Positions 39,201-62,800 of a stretch of 64,000 nt of DNA are shown here, piece by piece. How positions within the stretch are numbered: the first letter of the stretch is position 1; each line of letters begins with the position of its first letter. The DNA is from Brachycybe producta (taxonomy: Eukaryota > Arthropoda > Diplopoda > Playtdesmida > Andrognathidae): positions 186,001 to 250,000 of the forward strand of contig JAUPFP010000044.1 of the NCBI GenBank assembly GCA_036925085.1. Reading direction: 5' to 3'. The position numbers were made by a program, and so were the translations under genes. The notes beneath the pieces were generated by a model that saw only the letters and a program-made list of their open reading frames with translations, searched no databases and was not told where the DNA came from.

Positions 39201-42200
39201 CGTGCTAAATTAACACGAAATAAAAAAGGGCCAAAACGTTTTTCGTGTTAAAAGAATTAGAATGCTATTCTAACTGACTGAACAACAATTTCTTTTTTGT
39301 TTTAACGTAATTATAATTTTGTGTTAAACAATTTTTAATGCACAATTGGAAATCGTTTAACACGAAATGGAAGGCACCTGAATTATATAGATTTTCATAT
39401 TAAACGAATTTCGTGTTAAACGAATTTTTTTTGGCTATTCTAAGGTACAGGAACGAAAATATATTTTGTCTTATCCGATTTTTCCTGTTAAACGCTTTTT
39501 TTCACACGAAATCGATACAACTGGAATATGTTTTTGTGTGTTAAACGAATTTCGTATTTAAAGCAATTTAATGTTATACTCTAAGCGATTGGATCGAAAA
39601 TGTATTTCGTGTTATCCGAATTTTCATATTAATGAGATTCGGTTTTTTTTCTTTCTGTTTTAAGATATTACGATGTACTGAATGGAATCCTTCCAAGTCA
39701 CGTATCCGATCGTTATTATTCGATATTGAATGAGTCTCGTACGATTCGTGGCCGTCTCGATAGCTTGGAAGTTACGATGGACGCTTCCGACTCCGAAGTG
39801 GAACTCAACGAACGTGACGTCATGACTTGTATGACGTTGCGTCGTAAACTGGATGAGTTTAAGAACGAATTGCAAACATTTGAATGTCCTGCACTTCGGT
39901 TTGTATTCTAAATTTTGTTTTTGTTTTTCACGTAACGAAGAGGAACTTAAAAACGATTCTCCGTTGTCTTAAACAGATCTTTAATTATCAAGAAGGAATT
40001 AGACGTAAAATCGGCTCCTCTCGGACGGAGAAGCGATGGTGAAGTCGTTTTTCACGTTGTTGCGGACAAGTTAATCGCCGGAATGTTTCAAGTAAGAATT
40101 TGAAATGTTGTTTCTTTGTTATTATATGTGTTAATCGAAGTTCATTTTACGTCGGCTTTATAGGTGTTTATTTTGTTTTTGTCGCTCCCGACGGCGCCAC
40201 TGCAGTGGCCAATGCTCCATAGATGTTTTTTGTAAAATTTAGACCCAAAAACGTCAAGCGAACGTTTTTTAAAAACAACATTATGAAAAAATTCAAATTG
40301 TTTTCAAAACTAGAATGGTAAAAGATTATGTTAAAGGTTTTTCCATAGAAATATCTTAAAAAAAATAAACATTTTATAGTTCAGTTTGAAAATGACCCCC
40401 GTTAGAGTTAGAGAGTTTTTCCATCGACATTTCATGAAAAACTATTTTCGGCCTTTTTCAAACTTGTCATAAAAAGTTTATTTTGAAAGATATTATCATT
40501 GAAAAAACGTTTAGCATCATCAATTTATCGCCAACTAATCTAGTTTCTAAAACACTTTGAAGTTTTTTTGTGATATTTCTTCTGAAAAACGTTTGCTTGA
40601 AAAACATAAATTGTCTCAAAACCGCAGGTGGGGGGAAGAGACCTCCTAAAGTAGAACATATAATAGCCAGGCATGTGCGCCATCTGGGAGGACGAAACCC
40701 AAGATAAATATCTATTCAATCCACCTTAAGATGATTTTATGAACAGCAGATTTTCAAATTGTGTATTGTTCTGTCTTTAGAAAAAAGCAAAATTAAGAGA
40801 AACCAGAAAAAAGCGTTTTAAAAACTAGAGTGGCTTCTTTTTTTCTCTTTAAAACTAGTTTCGCCATAAAAAGTTTATTTTGAAAAATATCACCATGAAA
40901 ATTTTTTTAGCATTATCACCAGCTATTCTAGTTTCTACAACACTGAAGTTTTTCGTAATGTTTTTGCCTGAAAACGTTCGCTTGAAAAACAAATTTTCTC
41001 AAAACCGCAGGTGGGGAGAACAAACCTCCTATAGAACGCCATCTGGAAGGACGAAAAGCAAAATAAATATCTATTCAACCACCTTAACAGCAGATTTTCA
41101 AATTGTGTATTGTTCTGTTTTTAGAAAAAAGCAAAATTAAGAGAAACCAGAAAAAAGCGTTTTAAAAACTAGAGTGGGTAGCTTAATCACTTAATGGTAT
41201 TTTACGAGCGTACTATTTTTATTTTGTTATCTTTCAACTTACCAGCACTCACCCATGATAATTTTTTAACTTGGGAGTTGAGCTACCTCTATGTATGTGG
41301 TGATATTAATGTAGGCTGAAGATAACTTCACTGCATAACTCTCGTGTAGGGTTTAATATTAATAATTGTGAATTTTAAAAATAATTGAGGACAGAGAGGT
41401 TTTTATAATTGTTTTGATAATTTGTAGTTTATGATTGTTTAATGTATAAAATACTTATTTCCAAAAATTAACATAAATGTATAGTGTTAATTGTTGGTTT
41501 TTAAATGTAGTGTTTCACCAATGACACAGTGTTTGTCTGTAAGTTCCCTTATAAAAAGGAAAATGGCAATGTTGAGTAAAACGTATAACATGTGAATTTG
41601 GTGACGGAAGCACAAACTGGAGTTCTTAGTAACTCGCTTCTTTCCGAGGAAAATCCCCGGACCAAGGACAGAAAGTGTCGAGACTGCAAAGTCTTCAGCC
41701 TGCCGTGTTAAGGTCATAGGAACGCTGGGAACCCCGTGTGGGTGAGCAAGGCTTAAAAAGGCACGGTGATAGTCATAGCAAAGAAATACAAATAACCCGT
41801 AGTTGGTTTAACAGAATGGGGCTTATCACATGTTATACGCTTCTTTTTTTCTCTTTAAAACTAGTTTCGCCATAAAAAGTTTATTTTGAAAAATATCACC
41901 ATGAAATTTTTTTTAGCATTATCACCAGCTATTCTAGTTTCTACAACACTGAAGTTTTTCGTAATGTTTTTGCCTGAAAACGTTCGCTTGAAAAACAAAT
42001 TTTCTCAAAACCGCAGGTGGGGAGAACAAACCTCCTATAGAACGCCATCTGGAAGGACGAAAAGCAAAATAAATATCTATTCAACCACCTTAAGATGGTT
42101 TTATGAACAGCAGATTTTCAAATTGTGTATTGTTCTGTTTTTAGAAAAAAGCAAAATTAAGAGAAGCCCGAAAAAGCGTTTTAAAAACTAGAATGGGTAG

Positions 42201-59800: not shown

Positions 59801-62800
59801 AAAGACACATTTGAATATTGTAATCAACAAATTCTAAAACCTGACCACAACATCCAAAAAGCGATTGCAACTTCAATGATTGTTAAAAACACAGTTCGAA
59901 GACAAATTTACCGTTATAATTGAGACCATGTGTGTTTTTAAAAACGTCAATTTTCAATTAACGTCGATCACGTCTATGTCGTCTGCAGGATCGTGCACGC
60001 GTTCAATGCTTTATGACTTTTAATATGGGCATAAAATGATATACTGATTTTTTTTTGTTAAAATTGATTATTGGAAATGTGTAGATACTGTTCGATCGTG
60101 TTGCGTGAAATAGCTCTTCCTCCTTGCCTAATCAATTGCAGAGATGTGATAACAATTGAATCACTTGTCGAAGAAGTTAAAGAACTTTCTGTGAAGTAAC
60201 ACATTACCTGTTTTTATATGTCAAGGATGATTAGTGACTCTTCTAATCTTTATTATTTTGGTTTTGTTGCTCTCATTTTCTTCAGAGGTCACGGTGTCTA
60301 CGGTTCCGTTTTGGATCGATTATTTACTTTGAATTCGGAATGTGTCGGAACTAAATACGAACAAGTCGTGGCCGACTTACTAGCTCAGTTACAGGTTTGT
60401 TTTAAGTGTTTTAATTTGATGGAGTCTGATGTGTTATTCGTAATTTTTTTCTTCTGAACATTAGAGTGAAAAGAACTATTTTCGAGAAAGGATTGAAGAC
60501 ATTCAGATAAAGTTAACGTCTCCGACCATTGAAAACGTTAGTCTTAGCGATGTTAATAGCAAACAATTGGACGTTTCGTTAAAGGGTGAGCTCATTGGCA
60601 GCCTTTTGATGCGTTTTGAATTTGTATGAAAGTTTCTTTTGTTTTCTAGATGCTAAAGATCATCTTTGGAGGGTTAACGATTGCATTATTGGTGTGAAAC
60701 GAATCATTGCGGACGCAGTTGCTGGATGGGATATAAGGTTAAAATCTTTTTCGTTTATTATGGAGTCTTAAAATTTTGTTGAGGTGGTTGTATGAGGGTG
60801 AAGGGGCGGACTGAGACAAAAATGTCCCAGTTTAAAGTTATTCGATGCGAGGGTATGCGTGCCACCTTGTGGAGGACAGTCCTCCATTCGGAAGAACTGT
60901 CTTCTGGCCAGGACCATTATCCATAAACGTATTTAAGTTTTTATACAATTTATTGTGTGGAGGACATGTTTTCCTTCGTGGAGGACGGTCCTGGTCGCAG
61001 GACATTTCCTCTGAATGGTTGACTGTCCTCCACAAAGGAGCAATGGTGGCAAGCCTATTCGAGGGGCTCTTCGTTAATGCAAGCGTAGCGAGTGTAAATT
61101 TTGTTTTTTGTTTCTTCAAACAACCCAAATGGCAGCAGGACAATTCAGTCTTAAAAATGGGTTATGAATAGCTGACTTTCAAATTCTTGATTAATATGTA
61201 TTTCAGGAGCAACATAAGAGAAGAAAGTGTTTTAGAAATTAGAAGGGTAGCTGAATCACCCATGAGTATCTTCATGTCGATATTTTTCAAAAGGAACCGT
61301 TTACCACTCACCCATGATATTTTTTTTTAACTTGGGAGTTGAGCTACCTCTATGTATGTGGTGATATTAATGTAGGCTGAAGATAAGCTTCACTGCATAA
61401 CACTCATGTCTAGTTTAATATTAATAATTGTGAATTTTAAAAATAATCGAAGACAGTGAGGTTTTTATAATTGTTTTGATAATTTGTAGTTTATGATTGT
61501 TTAATGTTTAAAATAATTATTTCCAAAAATTAACATAAATGTATAGTGTTTATTGTGGGGTTTTAAATGTAGTGTTTCACCAATGAAACAGTGTTTGTCT
61601 GTAAGTTCCCTTATAAAAAGGAAAATGGCAATGTTGGCTAAAGTGTATAACATGTGAATTTGGTGACGGAAGCACAAACTGGAGTTCTTAGTAACTCGAT
61701 TCTTTCCGAGGAAAGTCCCCGGACCAAGGACAGAAAGTGTCGAGACTGTTACAGTCTTCAGCCTGTCTCATTAAGTTCAATCCCGCTTGGATCCCGCTGT
61801 GGGTGAGCAAGGCTTAATTAAGGCACGGTGATTGTCATAGCAAAGAAATACAAATAACCCGTAGTTGGTTTAACAGAATGGGGCTTATCACATGTTATAC
61901 GCTTCTTTTTTTAAATGATCGTTTATGAACAACTGGTTTTGAACTCTTCATTATTGTGTTTTTCTCTGAGCAAATTTAAGATTAAATAAAAAGTGTTTTA
62001 GAAACTGGAAGGGTAGTTCAATCTTAGACTATTACTAGAGTAGAGTAATAGTCTAAGGTTCAATCACTTAAGGTGGCTGAGTAGATATTTTGTTTTTTGG
62101 CCTTCCTGGATGGCGCGCCTGCAGTGGCTATTATGTTCTATATGTGGTTCTGTCTCCCCATGTTGAGAAATGTTCAAGCGAACGTTTTTCAGAAGAAACA
62201 TTACAAAAATAAAATCTAAGTTTCTTAGAAACTAGAATAGTTGGTGATAATACTAAAAAAAATGTTCATGATGATATCTTTAAAAATAATTTTTTATGAC
62301 AGTTTGAAAAAGGCGAAAATAAGTTTTTTCATGAAATGTCAATGGAGAAAAAAAAAAATCTAAAAACGGGTCATTTTCAAGCTGAATTTTTAACATATTG
62401 CTGCGAAGATTTTTTAGCATAATCTTCTGCCATTCTAGTTTTGAAAACAATGTGAATTTTTTTTTTCGTAATGTTTCTTAAAAAAAAAACGTTTGCTTTA
62501 TTTGATATTATCCACTGCAGTCGTGCCATACTGGGGTACAAAAACAAAATAAATATCTATTCAGCCACCTAAAGTGATTGAACTACCCTTCTAGTTTACC
62601 CTTCTCCTTTCCAGTTTCTCTTAATTTTACTCAAAGGGACATTTCTACTATAGAAACCACTGTAGGTGACTCTTCTAGTTTCTCAAACAGTTTCAATTGA
62701 ATTTTGACGTTGCTTATGTGTAACACAGAATAACCAATGTTTTTCATATGCAATAACTGTAAACGTCTAATTTTTGTTACATAATATGATAGGTTTTCTG

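Follow-up and report, generated by a model that had tools for sequence, protein, structure and literature searches.

A probable small family of dispersed genes for RNase MRP RNA with a conserved core and a divergent arm in the millipede Brachycybe producta

RNase MRP RNA is the sister of RNase P RNA and has a role in cutting ribosomal RNA. Most of the species surveyed have a single gene for it; five related sequences have been described in the sea urchin, some of them possibly assembly artefacts, and plants are multicopy too (passages of PMC1796607), as is a tunicate with two loci (a passage of PMC5006418). The Drosophila gene sits in an intron of CG10365, on the opposite strand (PMC1796607, same account), and intronic RNase P RNA genes devoid of RNA polymerase III (Pol III) signals have been reported from insects and crustaceans (in part of PMC4287351). 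Given these sea urchin, plant and fly cases in print, neither multiple copies nor an intronic position would be new for an MRP RNA gene, and the kind is known. Here we describe the MRP RNA genes found in 64,000 nucleotides of the millipede Brachycybe producta (contig JAUPFP010000044.1, or C44, positions 186,001 to 250,000, the whole stretch being called the window), together with their relatives in the same genome. As a family they are ordinary in kind. What is unexpected, and unexplained, is the way in which one arm of the RNA has evolved, a pattern that a literature search of listings and passages did not find in print. We are confident, short of certainty, that the genome holds a small dispersed family of self-contained genes of Pol III type in which the core has been kept and the arms have diverged.

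The window was scanned with cmscan against Rfam at gathering thresholds (50 bits for RNase_MRP, RF00030). There were three matches, all to RNase_MRP, on the + strand and over all 266 model positions, with E-values between 5e-27 and 3.3e-28:

41583 to 41837, + strand, RNase MRP RNA gene, copy A1 (RF00030, 100.8 bits, full length)
42598 to 42854, + strand, RNase MRP RNA gene, copy A2, in tandem to A1 (RF00030, 103.2 bits, full length)
61645 to 61899, + strand, RNase MRP RNA gene, copy A3 (RF00030, 104.5 bits, full length)

A preliminary description had placed three alike elements here, right to within a few bases, and the self-complementary terminal helix that it reported is indeed paired at 13 of 13 bp in each of them. 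ACAGAATGGGGCTTAT and AGCAAAG were found in the three copies as described. Two other motifs given for all of them, GAGGAAAGTCCCC and GGCACGGTGA, are each present in two; A1 reads GAGGAAAATCCCC at the first, and A2 has GGCACAGTGA at the second. The same description took the elements for RNase P RNA genes on account of a helix P4 held to be diagnostic, a possibility to which we leave next to no chance. P4 and the general fold are common to both RNAs, so P4 does not discriminate between them. The best family for the window copies is RF00030 and not RF00009 (cmscan keeps the best match of a clan), the GARAR motif, a signature of MRP RNA according to PMC4287351 (seen in part), is found in the P8 loop of 7/7 MRP-type copies of the genome, and an RNase P RNA match lies apart from them at C33:657181-657499 (153.5 bits; at least one such match among the best 16 of 6757 candidates scored with RF00009). 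What stands of the label is an RNA of the P/MRP type. As judged from their sequence, A1, A2 and A3 are full-length structured genes of RNase MRP RNA, not RNase P RNA.

Over the whole assembly (295 Mb, 442 contigs) the RF00030 search gave at least seven loci above the cut-off, the lowest with 59.6 bits, among the best 26 of 1975 candidates scored, and a DNA query with A3 recovered the same seven (7/7 candidates scored). None of 14 control genomes had a match over the cut-off. The earlier claim of several copies was therefore right in kind and low in number, since it counted three. The four loci outside the window, all found by both RF00030 and the DNA query, are:

C44:95486, + strand, copy B
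C59:42312, + strand, copy C
C59:151309, + strand, copy D
C36:905863, + strand, copy E (diverged)

Each of the seven loci lies on the + strand of its contig. Identity to A3 is 89–92% for A1, A2, B, C and D and 76% for E, and we read the family as six close copies and one decayed copy (E). It is very improbable that the copies are haplotype duplicates or artefacts of an assembly that comprises 442 contigs, as could be suspected from MRP units common to C44 and C59. In the approximately 4 kb at either side of the copies, BLAST found the unit in common between loci of C44 and C59, along with shorter matches like those of dispersed repeats, indicating that these loci do not represent haplotypes of a single one, and four copies are found at separate places on one contig.

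Each window copy is preceded by a candidate promoter with an element similar to a proximal sequence element (PSE; TTCACC...AGTG), recognized by a pattern scan and by comparison by eye with the promoters of U6 and RNase P RNA genes, and followed by a T-run of the Pol III terminator type, recognized in the sequence and by comparison of the tails:

41514 to 41555, + strand, PSE-like element and TATA box of A1
42529 to 42572, + strand, PSE-like element and TATA box of A2
61576 to 61617, + strand, PSE-like element and TATA box of A3
41844 to 41850, + strand, T7 run, terminator of A1
42858 to 42866, + strand, T9 run, terminator of A2
61906 to 61912, + strand, T7 run, terminator of A3

In the six close copies the spacing from TTCACC...AGTG to the TATA box is 36 bases. 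A like layout, at a spacing of 36–38, is found at six U6 genes of this genome and at its RNase P RNA gene, and in the three kinds of gene the element starts 68 to ~73 bases before the gene. The pattern TTCAC[CT].{30,33}TATA[TA]A was searched on both strands of 220,708 bases, namely the window plus loci chosen for holding or neighbouring these small-RNA genes, and gave 15 matches: the six MRP copies, the RNase P RNA gene, the six U6 genes and two others. With TTCACC required, 12/12 matches were small-RNA genes; within the window alone, three of four were MRP copies. T-runs are found behind all seven MRP genes and, by motif and spacing, on which the assignment of the MRP promoters rests, 6/7 combine a type 3 promoter (PSE, TATA) with a T-run. 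With promoter features in common with the U6 genes and the RNase P RNA gene, and with T-runs at their ends, the six copies resemble independent Pol III genes, and transcription by Pol III from their own promoters is their likeliest mode of expression. A PSE matrix built from the U6 genes was discarded as too specific for U6 to separate MRP promoters well, and motif plus spacing took its place. The six U6 genes are nearly identical to each other, five of them at C49:324556-401484 and one at C13:269268, all with the PSE-TATA layout, and a seventh, weaker match is located on C1. Further upstream of the PSE, a block of ~75 bp at -175..-100 of the six MRP genes (~41408-41483 for A1) is nearly unchanged (1–3% per 30-column window among the six copies) and may be a distal promoter element.

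The most conspicuous difference among the close copies is concentrated in one arm, delimited by alignment of the copies and by folding:

41699 to 41765, + strand, hyperdivergent arm of A1
42718 to 42782, + strand, hyperdivergent arm of A2
61762 to 61827, + strand, hyperdivergent arm of A3

Judging by where it falls in RF00030 and by its predicted fold, we infer that this arm matches the stem named P10-P12 in the human specificity domain. Divergence was calculated as mean pairwise substitutions among the six close copies, leaving out gapped positions. The arm (RNA positions 116–181) reached 22.5% (22.5–22.8% under four alignment settings), the short stretch before it 6.3%, the upstream region -340..-71 6.2%, and the two core parts 2.8% and 3.3%. 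In three disjoint pairs the arm was more different than the upstream region: 14/64 vs 15/260 for A1-A2 (p=2.5e-4), 15/63 vs 8/261 for C-D (p=6.7e-7) and 15/64 vs 22/262 for A3-B (p=1.7e-3). Far flanks are shared by two of these pairs only, and there the contrast holds, with 39/877 in the flank vs 15/63 in the arm for C-D (p=5e-7, 72 gapped columns left out) and 4/404 vs 14/64 for A1-A2 (p=4e-10, 21 gapped columns left out). Under a partition model the relative speeds were 3.68 for the arm, 0.78 upstream, 0.76 for the promoter and 0.41 and 0.44 for the core (log-likelihood -1484.1 vs -1526.2 with equal speeds). The upstream 30-column windows span 0 to 0.17, compared to an arm peak of 0.39, a spread indicating that part of the flank may be constrained and that it provides no clean neutral yardstick. 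The low speed of the core relative to the flank fits purifying selection on several copies. In spite of the differences the outer strands of the arm are predicted to form a stem in each of the six close copies; the best fold of E lacks it. The pairing energy averages -13.4 kcal/mol over the six vs -8.2 after an equal number of random changes, with 14/30 ordered pairs at p 0.05 or less. The 3' strand of the arm varies little between copies, and one stem pair, followed by eye, is A-U in A1, A3, B and D, G-U in A2 and G-C in C.

The trees add a second aspect. The arms of B and D are almost alike (5/66), unlike their flanks (20/265 upstream), and C and D, the closest upstream (8/271), yet differ at 15/63 positions in the arm. 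The upstream tree is rejected by the arm data (approximately unbiased test, p=0.039) and the arm tree by the upstream data (p=0.047), both marginally, with bootstrap values of 45–85 in the two trees. The discordant trees and the arm shared by B and D make it probable that the copies have exchanged segments. The pattern of the arm could be explained either by gene conversion that homogenised flank and core while old arms were kept, or by selection for different arms. Diversifying selection as the source of the divergence, instead of persisting old arms or gene conversion with homogenised flanks, would account for an arm that changes faster than the shared far flank in C-D and A1-A2 and for a speed of 3.68 vs 0.78; we consider it rather unlikely, because arm and flank trees disagree and B and D share an arm and not flanks, which points to exchange, and because upstream windows ranging from 0 to 0.17 are an imperfect neutral yardstick. 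A bolder version, in which selection keeps different arms on one core and these are traded as cassettes, perhaps for different substrates or protein contacts, we regard as improbable. The ribosomal DNA (rDNA) of this genome also has many variants in internal transcribed spacer 1 (ITS1), the region cut by MRP. No tie between ITS1 types and MRP copies was found among 19 rDNA units. Substrate recognition has been placed at P5, CR-IV, the P8 loop and proteins (a passage of PMC13184271). With no ITS1 type tied to a copy and the published recognition sites elsewhere, a link between ITS1 and the arm was rejected.

As for the rDNA itself, units on C57, C153 and C155 indicated that ITS1 varies within this one genome, with large indels further upstream. 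In the 19 units read of 40 listed, the last 400 nt of ITS1 differ by a median of 2.8% per pair and form nine classes; in the same units ITS2 differs by 0.9%, the start of the large subunit gene by 0, and the 5.8S gene is identical. At least 40 matches to 5.8S are present (best 40 of 7208 candidates scored).

What these genes offer is a set of close paralogues that are natural variants of one arm over a nearly constant core, i.e., a way to ask what the arm does. In the human structure RMP24 contacts stems P10 and P12.1 (PMC13184271, passage seen), and if the arm corresponds to P10/P12.1 its variants would test this contact. Compared to RNase MRP RNA as known from RF00030, the full-length covariance match, the P4 core, GARAR in L8 and the Pol III-type promoter are as expected; six close copies plus one diverged in place of the usual single gene, and strongly different arms, are not. 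The sea urchin and plants likewise have several related MRP RNA genes per genome, although the account of them in the passages of PMC1796607 contains no comparison of arms.

Loss and decay are also visible in the family. P4 (CR-I with CR-V) is intact in five of the seven copies (A2, A3, B, C and D), which look sound in this helix, and P1 has 13/13 pairs in six of seven (12/13 in D). Two remnants have no gene left, indicating that MRP copies get lost:

40833 to 41087, + strand, spacer and terminator tail left by what was presumably once a tandem copy (A0), the gene being gone (repeat family D2, junction)
C59:47357-47446, promoter-side relic, 90 bp of the upstream unit without PSE or gene

The first of them differs at 1 position in 255 nt from 41839-42093, the stretch after A1. 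One could then suppose that one or two MRP RNA genes are working and that the rest are recent pseudogenes carried along by duplication. The decay of E, the changed core of A1 and the gene-less relics all favour this, and still we find it unlikely, as the core has diverged (2.8–3.3%) only about half as much as the flank upstream, the core speeds are 0.41–0.44 vs 0.78, and PSE-like element, TATA and T-run have been kept in all six close copies.

We return to a family of self-contained genes, for which the following course can be proposed. Each of the six close copies would be a Pol III type 3 unit made of PSE-like element, TATA box, an RNA of ~255 nt and a T-run, presumably transcribed by Pol III into an RNA that, by analogy with its family, would join the MRP proteins and cut the precursor of ribosomal RNA in ITS1. 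The family would have grown by tandem and segmental duplication at the DNA level of a unit at least ~600 bp long, in a region rich in repeats, and would have lost members, leaving one diverged copy, one promoter relic and one terminator relic. Parts would probably have been swapped between members, perhaps by gene conversion, with the catalytic core held and the arm keeping its stem while its sequence came to differ strongly between copies.

Several observations weigh against this scheme. In the P4/CR-I core of A1 AAAATCCCC stands in place of AAAGTCCCC (the other copies read AAAGTCCC), leaving an A-C mismatch next to the bulged U and one broken pair, so that A1 may be impaired, and in E CCCA opposite GAGG breaks two pairs of P4; both copies are still over the RF00030 cut-off despite these mismatches. 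E is also devoid of a PSE-like element, by the pattern scan and by the U6-built matrix, and this matrix, trained on six genes, ranked the MRP elements only in the top 1–3% of random stretches. Over its full length the segment -70..-1 shows a mean difference of 7.0% between copies, which is not below the flank. Finally, cross-pairing of arm strands detected no copy-specific compensation: 374 of 720 re-pairings of the six copies are as good as their own, the mean with own partners (-13.40) equals that of all 720, and when E is included 2012/5040 re-pairings are at least as good.

The three window copies lie in what appear to be introns of protein-coding genes:

36170 to 44249 (outer limits approximate), + strand, SHCBP1-like gene hosting A1 and A2 (PF23762 and PF13229 of Pfam exceed their cut-offs)
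51453 to 64000 (running past the window), + strand, PIKfyve-like host gene of A3 (Pfam PF01363 and PF00610 over cut-off)

A1 and A2 are enclosed by a frame with an SHCBP_N domain (36170-36496) and a beta-helix frame (43668-44249) of the same strand, which we take to be one SHCBP1-like gene, in view of the pairing of these domains in SHCBP1. A3 is preceded on its strand by FYVE (51453-51683) and DEP (52558-53169) frames and followed, beyond the window, by kinase frames within C44:252784-254679, two out of three with PIP5K (PF01504) over the cut-off, and the order of domains is presumably that of a PIKfyve-like gene. Domain frames of the same strand on both sides thus support the placement of A1 and A2, and of A3, within introns of the respective genes, as the preliminary description had it. 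When it spoke of genes hidden in introns it was right about the position; dependence on the host is another matter, given the promoter and terminator sequences of their own. Excision from Pol II host transcripts, as for insect RNase P RNA, would be in line with three intronic copies in sense orientation; these same promoter and terminator sequences of Pol III type make it most unlikely, as do the Pol III signals that each of 26 surveyed insects has on its MRP RNA (PMC4287351, in the part seen). The genes described here also differ from the RNase P RNA that insects and crustaceans have in introns, in being MRP RNA genes with Pol III signals, and such signals are present even on the RNase P RNA gene of this millipede, contrary to the insect type. 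Their presence on that gene, like an E75-like receptor in the window, would suit an arthropod that is neither insect nor crustacean. The Drosophila gene in CG10365 is alike in lying within an intron of a protein gene and unlike in being antisense to its host, the window copies being sense; the passages of PMC1796607 mention no further fly copies.

Outside the window the surroundings are diverse. Copy E has a coding-looking frame on either side, the two being on opposite strands, and the one frame scanned on its far side had no Pfam match. For B and C no clear host gene was seen among the frames read, and D is downstream of a nuclear-receptor DNA-binding frame among those listed. There was no evidence of a mobile element carrying the MRP gene: the nine matches of the upstream unit (9/9 candidates scored) were six full ones beside genes, the 90-bp relic and two short weak ones, and a transposon-like spread of the unit was discarded for lack of support from them. 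A dispersed repeat of ~220 bp occurs at 40865-41087, to the left of A1, and at many other places, and flanks several MRP units; a query containing it gave at least 50 matches, three of them being the MRP flank region itself (best 40 of 4280 candidates scored).

Two minor observations are unrelated to these genes. Copies of COX1 were found on large contigs, one at C1:12697416-12698753 (with one TAA) and pieces at C17:3332011-4029047, which are probably nuclear copies of mitochondrial DNA, the mitochondrial contig probably being C442. With the invertebrate mitochondrial code, COX1 can be translated with no stop codon. At 4222-6591 the window has the terminal part of a ligand domain of the nuclear-receptor type, followed by a long tail of low complexity, by eye presumably those of an E75-like receptor; Hormone_recep of Pfam scores 20.5 bits there, short of its cut-off of 23.5.

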